Shown: positions 56,370 to 62,860 of the stretch, one piece after another | Numbering within the stretch: position 1 is the stretch's first letter | How the letters are laid out: every line of letters begins with the position of its first letter | IMG/VR virus record: IMGVR_UViG_3300018065_000011 | Location: 308,163-372,162 of that record | Direction: 5' to 3' (one strand) | DNA: 64,000 nucleotides | Origin: a virus | Notes under the pieces: model-generated | The model's input: the letters and a program-made list of their open reading frames with translations, nothing else | Databases searched by the model: none | What the model was told of the DNA's origin: nothing | Position numbers and translations under genes: made by a program

Positions 56370-56387
56370 CACCACACGAGAGGAACC

Positions 56388-58085
56388 ATGCCACGAAAGC
56401 TCGGACGTAAGGAATTTCCCTCTGCCCACAGCGCCGACGACTTCACCTACCAGGGTCGTCCCGCGAAGGACCAGGACGACTTCGGCAGCGACGTTGGGCT
56501 CGCTGACATGAAGTGCGTCAACCAGTTTGGCAGCAACAACAACAAGTACTACCACGCTGGAGTGGTGAAGGCGTCGGACGGTTCGTGGTGGGTCTACTTG
56601 GAGTGGGGTCGCGTCAAGTCAGGCAAGTCATGGAACGGAGGGTTCACGGGACAGGACTTCCAGTTTTGGGCGTGTACGTCGGAGAGCGAAGCTCGCGAGG
56701 CTTTCGAGAAGCAGTGCCGCAGCAAGAACATCAAGCGGCTGGAGCAGAAGGACGGCATCTGGGTTGGTCGGAAGGGCAAGGATGGTTACGTCGTCCAGAA
56801 ACTCGCCACTCGTGAGAACGGGCTGCCCGATGCCTACACGATCAAGGATGCAAGCGGCGTTTCTGGCGAGAAGAAAGCCGCCAAGAAGAAGGCCACCAAG
56901 AAGACCGCGAAAGCGAGACCAACGCAGAGCTACCATCCGCAGGAAGTCAAGCTCGTACAGGATCTCGTTGGCGGTACTCAGACATACGTGCAGCGAGCCG
57001 TCACCGAATCCGGTGGCGTGACTCCGACGCTCGATGCCATCGAGGAGGTTCGGGATACGCTCATTCCGAAGGCGATGAAGCACATCGCTCGCGTGTCCAA
57101 GAACACGCCGCAGGGCGCGATGGCTCAGGCAGCCTACGATCACAGGCTGGCCGTTGCTTGCACGAAGGACAAGAAGCTACAGGAGCTTTCCAACTACGTG
57201 GCGTCTTTGGTACCGCGACCAGACCCAGGGCGGTCGGCGGACGCAGAAACGCGAGCACTGGCTACGGTGTTGTCGTCGGGCAACATTCTCACTCTACAGC
57301 AGGATCTCGATACGTTCGTGTCTGCGCTGGAGAATGAGGATTTCGACGTGGCCGATCAGAGGCAAGTCGTGGGCGTCGATGTGGACGCTCGCCTGAATGC
57401 GCAGGTTCGTTGGCTCGATCCCAAGGGCAAGATGGGCAAGTGGGTCGAGGCTACCTTCTGTGCGATGAGCAACAATCGCCACAGCCATCTGCGTGGGCGG
57501 CTGGTGATCAAGAACATCTTTTCGGTGGTACGGCCAGACCGCGATGCCAAGTTTGTGGCCGCGGTCAAGAAGGTGGCGAAGGCACGGAAGGGCAACTTCA
57601 GTCACTTCGCGCGCATGCAGCCGAGGCGGCGGCAAGACCTGTCGGATCTCTCAGATTTGGCGGCGCAAGCCAATGTGTTTTTGGGCATCCATGGAACGCG
57701 CGCAGTCAACGTGGCTCCCATCGTCCAGACTGACTTGCGGTTGCCTCGATCACTGCCGGGTGCTCTGCTCACGGGAGCGGCTTTCGGCCACGGGATCTAC
57801 GAAGCGACGGACTGGCGCAAGAGCCATGGCTACACGGGCCACTCTTCCTCCTATTGGGCGAGCGGCGGCACGATTCGAGGCCGGGGATGGTTCATGTTCC
57901 TTCAGGACGTGATCATGGGGCAGGCGTACATGTGTCGCTCGACGGGTTCGTGGTCCACGCCGCCGAACAAGTGCGACTCGGTTGCGGCCTATCCCGAGTT
58001 TTCCAGTGTCGTCAACGATGAGCACATCGTGTTCGATCCCCACTATCAGAGGATCAGGTACATCATCGAGGGCGACATCAAGTGA
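56388..58085 (+). CDS. WGR-domain PARP-type ADP-ribosyltransferase
   Basis: The predicted enzyme transfers ADP-ribose from NAD+ to a target. Residues about 45-140 form a WGR domain: YYHAGVV, then WWVYLEWGRVKSGKSW (W73, G74, R75). A Lys/Ala-rich linker follows (162-177). Residues about 183-300 are helical. Residues about 430-560 are the catalytic domain: FLGIHGTRAVN (H435, as in the PARP HGS motif), TGAAFGHGIYEATD (Y471), WRKSHGY with S479 and Y482 at the same spacing as in PARP1, and VVNDEHIVFDPHYQRIRYI with E545 in the NEYIVYD position. So the H-Y-E triad of polymerising PARPs is intact. WGR domains bind nicked or broken DNA in eukaryotic PARPs. It is full length at 565 residues and starts at ATG 56388 with AGAGGAACC upstream. 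It faces the HNH gene, which overlaps its last 40 bases. Confidence 0.85.
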   Translation: MPRKLGRKEFPSAHSADDFTYQGRPAKDQDDFGSDVGLADMKCVNQFGSNNNKYYHAGVVKASDGSWWVYLEWGRVKSGKSWNGGFTGQDFQFWACTSESEAREAFEKQCRSKNIKRLEQKDGIWVGRKGKDGYVVQKLATRENGLPDAYTIKDASGVSGEKKAAKKKATKKTAKARPTQSYHPQEVKLVQDLVGGTQTYVQRAVTESGGVTPTLDAIEEVRDTLIPKAMKHIARVSKNTPQGAMAQAAYDHRLAVACTKDKKLQELSNYVASLVPRPDPGRSADAETRALATVLSSGNILTLQQDLDTFVSALENEDFDVADQRQVVGVDVDARLNAQVRWLDPKGKMGKWVEATFCAMSNNRHSHLRGRLVIKNIFSVVRPDRDAKFVAAVKKVAKARKGNFSHFARMQPRRRQDLSDLSDLAAQANVFLGIHGTRAVNVAPIVQTDLRLPRSLPGALLTGAAFGHGIYEATDWRKSHGYTGHSSSYWASGGTIRGRGWFMFLQDVIMGQAYMCRSTGSWSTPPNKCDSVAAYPEFSSVVNDEHIVFDPHYQRIRYIIEGDIK

Positions 58086-59311
58086 TGCGCACGCACTCTG
58101 GCAGCCCAGCCAAGAAACTCTGCCAGGCTGAGGGTGTTCTTGGCGCGATTGCACGACGCACAGGATGGTACGACGTTATCGGGAACGTATCCTCGTGTGT
58201 TGTCTATGCGGTCGACTCCCAAAGCTGGGTTGTCTCCACAGTAGGCACAAGGAGAACGAAACAGAGCCACGCAAAAAGCGCTGTCGAGAGCGAATTCGTA
58301 GCCACGGTTGCTTGCGCTCCACTTGCATTTTCTGAGTCGCTTTCGCTCCGCAGGCGTGGGTGCAGAGGTCGAGGGCGAGACAACGGGGCTCCAGTCATTC
58401 AATGGTACAATTCGAGATATCCACTGAAGGAATTCTTTGACCGACTTGGTTCCTTTTGCGAGATTGCAGGTTTTGCAGCAGGGTACGATGTTGTTTTTGA
58501 CGTAGCCCAGACGATTGTCCAATCGGTCGATTCCGTTGCAGCGGTAGAAACCGTAGAGCGACGTTCTGCTCACAATTCGAGGTTTCGCCCCGCAGTAGTG
58601 GCACGTTTGTTTGAACAGGGTCTCAGCTTCAATGAGCGAGATCTCGAATGGCAGGTTCCGTTTGCGTGCGTTTTTGAGGTAACCGTAGAATACATTGTTG
58701 CGGACGGAGACTCCGAAAGGTTTGCGGGCAGTTTCATCGCGGAGGCAGCCACAACTGCGCGTTGTTCCTTTGTACAAGGTCGAAGACCCCACCAAAGTCT
58801 CTCTGCCGCAGTCGCACCGACAACGATAGGCCCAACCAGGGCCGGATTTGGGCCGGATTTTCTCAAGAACAGTGAGTCGCCCAAATCGGGTGCCGGACGG
58901 GATCGTCGGCGATCGAACACAGCCACAGCTTTTGACCGATCCCGAGCGAAGGCTCCCTGGGAGCACGACGGTTTCATTCCCACAGTCGCATCGGCAACGA
59001 AACGCCGTCTGGTGTTTTCCCGAAGCCGAGGTTTGGGTGACGGGCTTCAGAACTATGAGGTTTGCAAATCTTTTGCCAACGAGATCTGCTTTGCGGCTAC
59101 AGCCGCAGCTTCGGGTTCGGGGAAGGTTGCCTCGTGTAACCCAGTGCTCTTTGCCACAATCGCACCTGCACAAACACTGGGCAGGAAACGAACCTTTCTT
59201 TCCTTGAAACTCAGCAATGACTACGAGGTTTCCGTGACGTTGCCCAACCAATGTTCCCGGTCGGTCCTTCGGCAGTTGGCGCCCTCGGGTCTTTGCAACG
59301 CTGGGTTTCAT
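58046..59311 (-). CDS. HNH endonuclease with three zinc-ribbon repeats
   Basis: The gene is on the opposite strand to all its neighbours. Numbered from ATG 59311, three repeats of about 50 residues (near 20-71, 76-131, 137-189) each have a G.R.G.L.V start and CRCDCG then SCGC, a DNA-binding zinc-ribbon layout common in phage homing nucleases. Two HNH units follow. The first has CHYCG, CNGIDRLDN and GYVKNNIVPCCKTCNLAKG (about 237-287). The second has CAYCG, GVDRIDNTRGYVPDNVVP and CASCNRAKN (about 355-392). ATG 59311 is chosen because a TGGTATAAT extended -10 lies 14 bases upstream; an in-frame ATG at 59353 is upstream of that promoter. Free-standing HNH genes of this type are usually selfish homing elements. 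A role in genome packaging or exclusion is less likely. Confidence 0.85.
   Translation of the reverse strand: MKPSVAKTRGRQLPKDRPGTLVGQRHGNLVVIAEFQGKKGSFPAQCLCRCDCGKEHWVTRGNLPRTRSCGCSRKADLVGKRFANLIVLKPVTQTSASGKHQTAFRCRCDCGNETVVLPGSLRSGSVKSCGCVRSPTIPSGTRFGRLTVLEKIRPKSGPGWAYRCRCDCGRETLVGSSTLYKGTTRSCGCLRDETARKPFGVSVRNNVFYGYLKNARKRNLPFEISLIEAETLFKQTCHYCGAKPRIVSRTSLYGFYRCNGIDRLDNRLGYVKNNIVPCCKTCNLAKGTKSVKEFLQWISRIVPLNDWSPVVSPSTSAPTPAERKRLRKCKWSASNRGYEFALDSAFCVALFRSPCAYCGDNPALGVDRIDNTRGYVPDNVVPSCASCNRAKNTLSLAEFLGWAARVRAHHLMSPSMMYLIL
58077..58087 (+). repeat. Direct repeat ATCAAGTGATG, left copy
   Basis: The end of the PARP-like gene and the start of the gene at 59431 share ATCAAGTGATG (58077-58087 and 59423-59433), each preceded within a few bases by GGGCGA. 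In both cases the repeat contains a stop and the following ATG context. The pair flanks the HNH gene and could mark its insertion. Confidence 0.35.
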
Positions 59312-59324
59312 TCCGTTGTTGCAG

Positions 59325-59333
59325 ATTATACCA
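59325..59333 (-). promoter_or_regulatory. Extended -10 promoter for the HNH gene
   Basis: On the - strand the sequence is TGGTATAAT, a perfect TGn plus TATAAT. Transcription would begin about 7 bases downstream, leaving a very short leader before ATG 59311. No clear -35 hexamer is seen at the usual distance, as expected for extended -10 promoters. It is host sigma-70-like, unlike the other elements in the window. Confidence 0.5.
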
Positions 59334-59345
59334 GGGGAGACACTG

Positions 59346-59411
59346 ATGAGCATTTTCCGGGTAGGCGGCGAAGCACGTGTGAACGAAGGGCGGAACGAAT
59401 CGCCGGGGTGA
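59346..59411 (+). CDS. Possible 21-residue peptide upstream of a small gene
   Basis: ATG 59346 has a good ribosome site, AGGGGAGA, five bases upstream. The peptide begins MSIFRVGGEARVNEG and ends 19 bases before ATG 59431. It may be a leader peptide, or the remnant of a gene disrupted when the HNH gene arrived. Coding status is uncertain. Confidence 0.25.
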   Translation: MSIFRVGGEARVNEGRNESPG

Positions 59412-59640: not shown

Positions 59641-59711
59641 AAGGTTTGATTTTTGGCGTATTATCCTCACAGACAACAACCAACTTGGGCCACGATCCAA
59701 GGAGAAAGAAA

Positions 59712-60521
59712 ATGACAAACGCAACCTCCACGAAGGAAGCAGTCAAGGACAGCGGAAACTGGCGCGATGCAGTGGTCGATATCGTCGGCTACTACACGTC
59801 CAACAACTTGTGCTTTTCGTCAGGCGAGATCGCCGCGGAGTTGAGAACGCATCGGACGGATCTCAGGTTTTCGGTCCTCAATCTGGGCGAGTACGTGCGC
59901 GACCTGTTCTACAACGGTGCGATCAACTACACCGACGATGACGGCGACAGTCAGCAGGCTGTCCAGGCATCAAGGACAACCTCGGGAACCGGCCGCACTC
60001 CGGCTGGGAGGCTCGTATTCGTGTACGGCCCAGAGGCGGCCGAAGCGAACGCTCACGACTTCGAGGTTGACATTCCCAATCCTGGGGCTCCGGCAACCGC
60101 TGCCGCCAGCCCGATCAAGCCGAAGGGCGGCTACCCGACCGCTGTCGATGGCGACGATGATGAGGATGACGACGGCACGGCCATGACGGCCAGCGACAAG
60201 CTGGGGTCAGGCGAGTTTCAGGCGACGGTGCATGTGGACAAGCGCCTGTGCATCACACGGCCGATCTTCGACAAATTCATTCAGGCGTCGGGCAAGACGC
60301 TTCGTGGCGGCGACTCGGTGTACATCGTGCTGAGCGACGATGAAGCTCGTATCACTATCGATGACCCGAACGATGATGACGCTGTGACCTACGATCTCAG
60401 CAAGGAGAGGGGTCGGGTGCTGTTCCGCCGCAAGAGCAATGAGTTTGCTCCCGGCGATCACTACAAGGTCACAGTGGCGGCAGCGGCTTTGGTCGTTGAT
60501 CTCAGCGCTCCGCTCGACTAG
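59712..60521 (+). CDS. Unknown protein with N-terminal winged-helix-like region
   Basis: ATG 59712 is set by AAGGAGA six bases upstream; the frame is open 22 codons further up but lacks any ribosome site. Of 269 residues, about 15-85 are helical with a DNA-binding look (WRDAVVDIVGYYTSN, SSGEIAAELRTHR, NLGEYVRDLFYNGAI), resembling a helix-turn-helix that reads groups of genes. Residues about 90-170 are a low-complexity linker with an acidic run (DGDDDEDDDG). The C-terminal 100 residues form a beta domain (GEFQATVHVDKRLCI, YIVLSDDEARITIDD). A single-stranded-DNA-binding or regulatory role is possible but unproven. A degenerate version of the 30-nt element may lie at 59634-59660. Confidence 0.5.
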   Translation: MTNATSTKEAVKDSGNWRDAVVDIVGYYTSNNLCFSSGEIAAELRTHRTDLRFSVLNLGEYVRDLFYNGAINYTDDDGDSQQAVQASRTTSGTGRTPAGRLVFVYGPEAAEANAHDFEVDIPNPGAPATAAASPIKPKGGYPTAVDGDDDEDDDGTAMTASDKLGSGEFQATVHVDKRLCITRPIFDKFIQASGKTLRGGDSVYIVLSDDEARITIDDPNDDDAVTYDLSKERGRVLFRRKSNEFAPGDHYKVTVAAAALVVDLSAPLD

Positions 60522-61285: not shown

Positions 61286-62860
61286 GTGCGGCACGCTGCT
61301 CCCGTTCGTGTAGAACAGAGACGCGACAATCTCGTCAAGGGGGCGCTTCATCTCGCTCGCGCAGTGAAGGTCGCCTATGGCCCTCGCGGCGGCACGGTTC
61401 TGATCGCACGTCGGTCGCCGCACGATATCCTGACGACCCGCGATGGCATGACGATTGCCTGTGAAGTCATCCCTCCGCATCGGGTTGAGCGTCTCGGAGC
61501 TTCCGCTCTCCGACAAGCTGCGATTCGCGTCAACGAGGAAGTGGGGGACGGGACGAGCACGGCGATTCTGATCGCCGCCAGGCTCATCGAGATCGGACAC
61601 AAGCACATTACGGCTGGGCACGATGCTGCCCTTTTCGTCCAGTCTCTTCGCCGCATGGCTTCTTGCACGCGTTCTCTCGATGCCTTGAAGATCGAAGTCA
61701 CGGACAAGAAGATGCTGGAGCATCTGGCGCTGCACACGACGCGAGGCGACAAAGAGATCGCCTGGGCATTGGCTGAGGCTTCCATGCTCGTTGGGAAGAC
61801 GGGGATGGTCGTGGTGGAGGATGGAAAGGGCGTCGAGGTAGAGATCGTTCCCAAGCAAGGGATGGAGCTAGACAAGGGCTGGGAGTCGTCTGACTTCTCC
61901 TCGGACGGACCATGGCAACAAGACGTGTGCCTCGTAGCCGTGGTCAATGGGACGGTGACGGAGTTTGGTGACATCGCTCCCATGATGGAGGCTGCTTCCC
62001 AGGTCGGTCCCGGCAACCTGCCTCTACTCGTCATCAGCCGCGGCATCTACGGTGAGGCGCTTCAAACGATGGTCACGAACCATCGCAAGGATGTGCTCCA
62101 CTGCTGCGCAGTGCGATGCCCAGGGTACGGCCCGAAGCAACGGGCCTGGATGGACGACTTGGCTGCGCTGACCCAGGCGACGGTGGTCGAGCCGAAGATG
62201 AACATGAGGCTCAAGGACTTCGACTCCGGCTGGCTTGGCTCCGTTCAACAGGTGACGGCTACTGCCGACGACGCAACGCTCGTGTGTTTTGATGACGCCT
62301 ACGAAAGCATCGAAAACCGAGTCAACGTTTTGCGCGGGGAACGTGAACGTTCGGAGTCGGCCCACGATCGCGAAAAGCTCACCGAACGTATCGCCAAACT
62401 CACGGATGGCTTCTGTCTGCTCCGGGTCGGAGGGGTCACGGAAGCTGCGGCGAAGGAGCGTCGAGGCCGCATCGAGGACGCGCTTCACGCGGTGCGGGCA
62501 GCGCTCACAAGTGGGGTCGTGCCGGGTGCGGGAATGGCGTATTTGTGGCTAGCGGAGAAGGTGAAGGAAGGCAGCCCAGGTCTGGCCGCTCAGGCGCTCT
62601 ACGAGGCTCTCAGAGAGCCTGTGAGGGCGTTGGCGCATAACACGGGGGGCGAACCCTCGGTGATTCTCCAGGGGCTCCAGGCGGCCCAGAAGCCCTGGTA
62701 CGGATGGGATGCACAGACGCGCAAATACCGCGATTTGGCAGCCGAACCTGCATTGGTCGATCCTCTCGGGCTCGTGCGGGTGGTGGTGGAAGCGGCCGTG
62801 TCCGTGGCGTCAACTCTCTTGACGGCAGACGTGGCAATCACGAAGGTTGGTGACCCATGA
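61286..62860 (+). CDS. groEL: GroEL-type chaperonin (524 aa)
   Basis: This is a group I chaperonin subunit: ATP-driven folding of substrate proteins in a double-ring cage. The ATP-site motifs are present: VAYGPRGGTVLI (31-40), TTRDGM (D53) and GDGTSTA (87-93). D398 in RRGRIEDALHAVRA aligns with the Asp needed for ATP hydrolysis, followed by SGVVPGAGMAYLW. The apical region is complete (MELDKGWESSDFSSDGPW, LLVISRGIYGEALQTMV, CPGYGPKQRAWMDDLAALT), and the intermediate hinges are seen. At 524 residues it is slightly shorter than bacterial GroEL (about 548) and lacks the GGM-repeat tail. Start GTG 61286 gives MRHAAPVRVEQRRDNLVKGA, matching the usual N-terminal helix. No GroES is seen in the window. 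It overlaps the next gene as ATGA. A role in folding large virion proteins is inferred; a few jumbo phages are known to encode similar chaperonins. Confidence 0.92.
   Translation: MRHAAPVRVEQRRDNLVKGALHLARAVKVAYGPRGGTVLIARRSPHDILTTRDGMTIACEVIPPHRVERLGASALRQAAIRVNEEVGDGTSTAILIAARLIEIGHKHITAGHDAALFVQSLRRMASCTRSLDALKIEVTDKKMLEHLALHTTRGDKEIAWALAEASMLVGKTGMVVVEDGKGVEVEIVPKQGMELDKGWESSDFSSDGPWQQDVCLVAVVNGTVTEFGDIAPMMEAASQVGPGNLPLLVISRGIYGEALQTMVTNHRKDVLHCCAVRCPGYGPKQRAWMDDLAALTQATVVEPKMNMRLKDFDSGWLGSVQQVTATADDATLVCFDDAYESIENRVNVLRGERERSESAHDREKLTERIAKLTDGFCLLRVGGVTEAAAKERRGRIEDALHAVRAALTSGVVPGAGMAYLWLAEKVKEGSPGLAAQALYEALREPVRALAHNTGGEPSVILQGLQAAQKPWYGWDAQTRKYRDLAAEPALVDPLGLVRVVVEAAVSVASTLLTADVAITKVGDP

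Follow-up and report, generated by a model that had tools for sequence, protein, structure and literature searches.

What would a prokaryotic virus do with an ADP-ribosyltransferase built like those that sense DNA breaks in human cells? PAR-type signalling at DNA breaks is held to be largely eukaryotic, bacterial cases being sporadic, and no experimentally shown phage role of such signalling was found in the literature. The question is raised by a gene in the window, the final 64 kb (64,000 nucleotides) of the 372,162-base virus record IMGVR_UViG_3300018065_000011; an earlier note, made from the sequence alone, had rightly called this gene phage-borne.

A WGR-PARP gene and its active site

The open reading frame (Table 1) opens with ATG, and a Shine–Dalgarno-like GAGAGGA lies upstream at 56378-56384. 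In Pfam searches its product matched PARP and WGR as sole families: PARP (PF00644) scored 39.5 bits (cut-off 26.7; E = 5.7e-10, residues 421-532), and WGR (PF05406) scored 19.1 bits (cut-off 22; E = 0.0014), slightly below threshold, with 22.2 bits in the whole-contig search. All 15 close homologues matched PARP, and 12 of them matched WGR at E ≤ 0.01. Using a profile of the 34-sequence family, human PARP2 (6usj) was matched at E = 1.5e-55 across WGR, helical domain and ART; the profile of the close clade alone matched PARP1 in three stretches, the WGR stretch weakly. When the window protein was used as a single phmmer query against the PDB, no match was returned, PARP1 and PARP2 being reached by profiles only. 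Because of the W73-G74-R75 motif, the matching homologues and the profile alignment with the PARP2 WGR, the WGR of the window protein is judged to be a genuine domain despite its sub-threshold Pfam score.

Table 1. Coordinates of the PARP gene, its domains and catalytic codons, and associated genes (window positions unless a contig or locus is named)
Feature	Position	Strand	Basis
WGR-HD-ART PARP-family ADP-ribosyltransferase gene, 565 aa (with stop)	56388..58085	+	ORF, Pfam, profile, model
WGR domain, aa 48-114, motif W73-G74-R75	56529..56729	+	Pfam WGR marginal; homologues match
Helical (PARP_reg-like) domain, aa 184-315	56937..57332	+	model helices; profile alignment to PARP1/2 HD
ART catalytic domain, aa 421-564	57648..58079	+	Pfam PARP; Foldseek to PARP1 catalytic domains
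H435 codon (= PARP1 H862)	57690..57692	+	invariant in A6
Y471 codon (= PARP1 Y896)	57798..57800	+	invariant in A6
E545 codon (= PARP1 E988)	58020..58022	+	invariant in A6
Conserved 291 aa ORF downstream of PARP	59646..60521 (true start possibly 59712)	+	recurs in both subclades
ARH gene of the window's phage	contig 101464-102459		PF03747 E = 2.1e-59
NAD+ gene string, outside the window	contig G000:100238-108293	same strand throughout	NAPRTase-, NadE-, NadD-like, deaminase-like, NrtR-like Nudix, ARH, deoxyribosyltransferase-Nudix
Macrodomain gene abutting PARP	L144 4742-5199

No Pfam match to PARP_reg was obtained in the window protein, and the helical domain was recovered by profile and model instead. 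PARP_reg is above cut-off in the phage relatives 05F01, FBKp34 and KP13-16, and the helical domain of bacterial WGR-PARPs is often missed by Pfam (PMC5966428). An AlphaFold2 model (mean pLDDT 82.7, pTM 0.79) places helices at 184-315, and from profile and model together we take a helical regulatory domain to be present. The best PDB match of the model was human PARP1 bound to a DNA double-strand break (Foldseek E = 1.3e-20, probability 1.00, 574 columns); with TM-scores of 0.5-0.6 and rmsd above 6 Å, the domains are seen to be placed differently. Both the HMM search and the structure prediction thus returned the PARP fold, and the WGR, helical middle and PARP catalytic architecture described in the earlier note is borne out by Pfam PARP, the family profile and the model, with WGR marginal in Pfam and PARP_reg recovered via profile and structure only.

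Human PARP1, PARP2 and PARP3, the clade 1 DNA-repair PARPs, share with the window protein the WGR-HD-ART order, the H-Y-E triad, the WGR motif and a full-length profile and fold match. Unlike them, the window PARP (~16% identical in the Foldseek alignment) carries an N-terminal extension and a basic linker, has a shorter stretch before the catalytic Glu and is without zinc fingers or BRCT; its DNA dependence is a prediction from the WGR-HD portion alone. Comparison with a 73%-identical homologue gave dN 0.23 and dS 2.0 (saturated), and the resulting dN/dS of ~0.1 points to strong purifying selection. Given this ratio, the profile match to PARP2 and the Foldseek match to DNA-bound PARP1, the PARP identity is not ascribed to chance.

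An alignment of 34 phage PARP sequences (A6) shows no variation at H435, Y471, Y482 and E545 and almost none at S479. These five residues lie where the earlier note had located them; by profile alignment, H435, Y471 and E545 fall on the PARP1/2 H-Y-E positions, and the triad is kept in very diverged homologues. We class the window ORF as a PARP1/2/3-type, H-Y-E ADP-ribosyltransferase, predicted to be active. The note's inference of chain elongation from E545 was rejected as unsupported: the catalytic Glu is necessary but insufficient for it, since PARP3 is an H-Y-E enzyme yet chiefly mono-ADP-ribosylating, and ~27 residues of the PARP1 stretch preceding the catalytic Glu (counted by eye from profile alignments) are missing from the window PARP. 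PARP3 is counted among the mono-ARTs in PMC12377720. Residue 472 (codon 57801-57803), after the catalytic Tyr, is Glu in the window protein and Phe in PARP1 and many relatives; the position is mostly aromatic in PARPs and variable inside the huge-phage clade.

Carriers, relatives and surroundings of the gene

The same PARP protein is also encoded on a 497 kb contig, and full-length homologues turned up in LR756511 (595 kb) and in further contigs, the largest of 619 kb. In an 85-sequence tree, 16 huge-phage PARPs form a single clade (support 100/99) of two subclades of eight, with no bacterial member inside it among the sampled sequences. The clade is therein separate from the bacterial WGR-PARPs (Herpetosiphon, C. 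difficile CD160, Bacteroidota, Clostridia), which likewise combine WGR and ART with a helical domain. Elsewhere in the tree the remaining phage PARPs and bacterial PARPs are intermixed, which fits repeated transfer. Two PARP-domain ORFs, 118660-119010 and 149869-150387, occur in one 402 kb virus record (G029).

Phage PARPs are already on record in Aeh1 and phi4:1 (PMC4245714) and in XacN1 (PMC7824862), they are covered in a survey of viral NAD+-ADPr systems (PMC9503650), and the FBKp34 GenBank record names WGR, PARP_reg and PARP_cat, so the window gene alone belongs to a known kind. The PARPs of XacN1 (BBA65562.1) and of Klebsiella phages 05F01, FBKp34 and KP13-16 have the same WGR-(PARP_reg)-PARP architecture; they are ~425 aa long, against 565 in the window, and only 22-26% identical, and the nearest neighbours of the Klebsiella genes are RNR or orotate phosphoribosyltransferase genes. 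The novelty lies in the huge-phage clade and, chiefly, in the recurrent linkage to eraser and ligase genes. The available part of the survey describes ART-ARG pairs and PARTs, and not a ligase-macrodomain-PARP cassette (PMC9503650).

Relatives of the 291 aa ORF downstream of the window PARP lie downstream of PARP in 5 loci of the window's subclade and 6 loci of the other, and the neighbour families of the two subclades are homologous (hhalign probability 95.5, E = 1.6e-8). The ORF had no Pfam match; its product, judged by eye as AbrB-like, is possibly DNA-binding. On the minus strand at 58046-59353, convergent with PARP and overlapping its end by 40 bp, lies an HNH-endonuclease-like gene with repeated zinc-ribbon-like modules, whose product also has weak matches to PHROGs annotated as anti-sigma factor or sigma70 decoy. 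A phage-encoded GroEL-type chaperonin gene is found nearby at 61286-62860, as also downstream of PARP in L012; a homology search with this GroEL returned copies of the same phage only. Scans for promoters and terminators were uninformative, with 2 promoter-like sites where 1.6 were expected.

Eraser, ligase and NAD+ genes

To survey gene linkage, 103 phage-type PARP loci were collapsed to 78 non-redundant groups, drawing, for IMG/VR, on the best 80 of 178 contigs; 102 of the loci are on viral or phage contigs. The remaining one, a WGR-PARP at L071 2209-3396 with a ligase 543 bp downstream, is on a contig labelled Nanoarchaeia archaeon; as the neighbouring genes resemble phage genes, this may be a phage contig that was mis-binned, and the PARP not archaeal. 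Within this sample the commonest partners of PARP were a macrodomain gene (25 of 78 groups; Pfam Macro above cut-off in the representative sequence) and an ATP-dependent DNA ligase gene (22 of 78; PF01068, in many cases accompanied by the ligase OB domain). Both always shared the strand of PARP (39/39 macrodomain and 24/24 ligase loci), and the macrodomain gene mostly ended no more than 15 bp from the start of PARP. Both genes were near PARP in 8 of these 78 groups, and in 7 of them the three genes followed one another nearly gapless in the order ligase, macrodomain, PARP. Contiguous strings of this kind run through L144 3453-6420 and, similarly, L025, L126, L131, L137, L147 and L153.

In whole-record searches blind to the position of PARP, 14 of 22 macrodomain-bearing records had the macrodomain within 1.5 kb of PARP (0.44 expected), and 6 of 14 records had the ligase no more than 3 kb away (0.52 expected); PARP midpoints are approximate here, and the Monte Carlo expectations ignore phylogeny. 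A profile search for PARG (PF05028) gave no match in 14 records, but the control was likewise without signal. Most cassette loci share one arrangement and are therefore not independent events; the occurrence of macrodomains, and of ligases, both upstream and downstream of PARP argues for more than one origin of the linkage. The ligase-macrodomain-PARP cassette belongs to relatives only ~22-26% identical to the window PARP.

In the huge-phage clade the candidate eraser is of another family. ARH (PF03747) is present in most of this clade, and in ~5% of jumbo phages according to PMC9503650. Among the 8 members of the LR756511 subclade, 7 carry it on the PARP strand at a distance of 2.4-7.5 kb downstream; further genes are likewise syntenic there, and the linkage may be general synteny. 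LR756511 also has a ligase 384 bp downstream of PARP. Near the window PARP itself neither an eraser nor a ligase gene was found, the ARH being ~262 kb and the ligase ~300 kb distant on the contig. The best solved relatives of this ARH are ARH3 proteins (E = 4e-23), and with its metal motifs YTDDT (TDD) and GGDVDT (GDxDT) retained, the product is a putative ARH3-type hydrolase.

The ARH gene stands in a string that apparently serves phage NAD+ salvage and ADP-ribose handling (Table 1), in which the NAPRTase-like gene scored below curated cut-offs, so that its name holds at superfamily level. NadE, NrtR and ARH occur together in two related phages, ~19-26 kb from PARP. ARH was also seen in phages without a detected PARP (Munch-type). 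A structural-marker search gave 8 related records, 2 with PARP and the same 2 with ARH; the other 6 records are smaller, at ≤223 kb, and size confounds the comparison. Elsewhere on contig G000 are a KptA/Tpt1 RNA 2'-phosphotransferase gene (93013-93621), a small ORF that matched no family but in which an ART-like HGT motif was recognised by eye (118174-118665), and, by eye, a likely IS200/IS605-type TnpA/TnpB pair (about 97629-99213).

A break-triggered enzyme and its alternatives

Sequence or structure comparison establishes the architecture, the catalytic residues, their conservation and the gene neighbourhoods. The best explanation of these, which we hold with moderate confidence, is a break-triggered, reversible ADP-ribosylation system with a PARP1/2/3-type, DNA-structure-sensing enzyme; its DNA dependence, targets, reversibility and benefit to the phage we infer. 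The WGR domain would dock on a DNA end or nick, formed during phage genome replication or host DNA cutting, and the helical domain would then be released, whereby the ART domain would spend NAD+ to ADP-ribosylate the PARP itself and nearby DNA-bound proteins. The mark would be taken off by a phage hydrolase, ARH-type in the huge-phage clade and a macrodomain in many others, the break sealed by a phage or host ligase, and NAD+ perhaps topped up by the salvage genes of the window's phage. The WGR-PARPs of Herpetosiphon and C. difficile CD160 form PAR in a DNA-dependent manner (PMC5966428, PMC4245714), and because of these characterised bacterial enzymes and the shared architecture, ADP-ribosylation triggered by a DNA end or nick appears most likely. 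Modification of DNA-bound proteins, one of the roles put forward in the earlier note, gains support from the ligase and eraser neighbours of the relatives.

The main rival reads the PARP-macrodomain pairs as toxin-antitoxin or superinfection modules like DarT-DarG, in which the PARP modifies essential proteins or DNA and is restrained by the hydrolase next to it until another phage or stress sets it free. As in DarTG and the phage ART-ARG pairs, an ART lies beside an ADP-ribose hydrolase in many relatives of the window PARP; the abutting genes resemble the layout of macrodomain-linked ART toxins, and Aeromonas phage ART-ARG pairs are so interpreted in PMC9503650. Here, however, the ART is of the PARP1/2 type, whose WGR and helical domains suggest regulation by DNA breaks, a ligase is a recurrent third gene, the window's phage has no adjacent antidote, and PADLOC gave the window PARP no match among known anti-phage defence models, all of which makes this reading rather unlikely. 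We are more doubtful still of a virion-delivered or early host-takeover enzyme that, like T4 Alt, modifies host RNA polymerase or other proteins. T4 Alt, ModA and ModB, also phage ADP-ribosyltransferases, are not known to have a WGR or helical domain, and such a role would leave the WGR of the window protein unexplained. They belong to the R-S-E branch, according to PMC9503650, whereas the window PARP is of the H-Y-E type, as the earlier note's assignment to a different branch had implied. The same source gives ~44% of phage ARTs contexts that suggest packaging, and the window gene follows large structural and holin genes; no portal or MuF domain fusion is seen, however, and a head-packaging role is ranked lower because the relatives lie outside structural clusters, adjoining ligase, ClpX-like or nucleotide genes instead.

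That the enzyme blunts the NAD+-based defence of the host by draining NAD+ or competing for it seems very improbable. NAD+ does matter to the phage, as its own salvage genes show, but these genes would oppose such a drain; a DNA-gated enzyme would be a poor NADase, and the association with hydrolases of ADP-ribose adducts implies macromolecular products. Interference with NAD+-based defence, another suggestion of the note, accordingly found no direct support. It is harder still to credit an inactive remnant or DNA-binding decoy, for which the unusual Glu472 beside the catalytic Tyr might speak, when the triad is invariant across 34 divergent sequences and purifying selection appears strong.

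From the favoured break-triggered enzyme a wider proposal may be drawn, which we put forward tentatively: that phages have their own reversible and self-contained ADP-ribosylation pathway for DNA strand breaks, comprising a WGR-PARP writer, an eraser (an abutting macrodomain in one large group, an ARH in huge phages), often an ATP-dependent DNA ligase within the same string of genes and, here, NAD+ salvage with an ADP-ribose-sensing NrtR-like regulator. If true, single-strand break repair by PARP1/2 - LIG3 - PARG/ARH3 would have a counterpart in prokaryotic viruses. Of all forms of the system, the ligase-macrodomain-PARP string may lend itself best to testing; such small cassettes are easy to express and assay. 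Together, the huge-phage PARP clade and the cassettes make it testable whether bacterial viruses mark and mend DNA breaks by ADP-ribosylation, and the same material bears on whether phages carried PARPs between domains.
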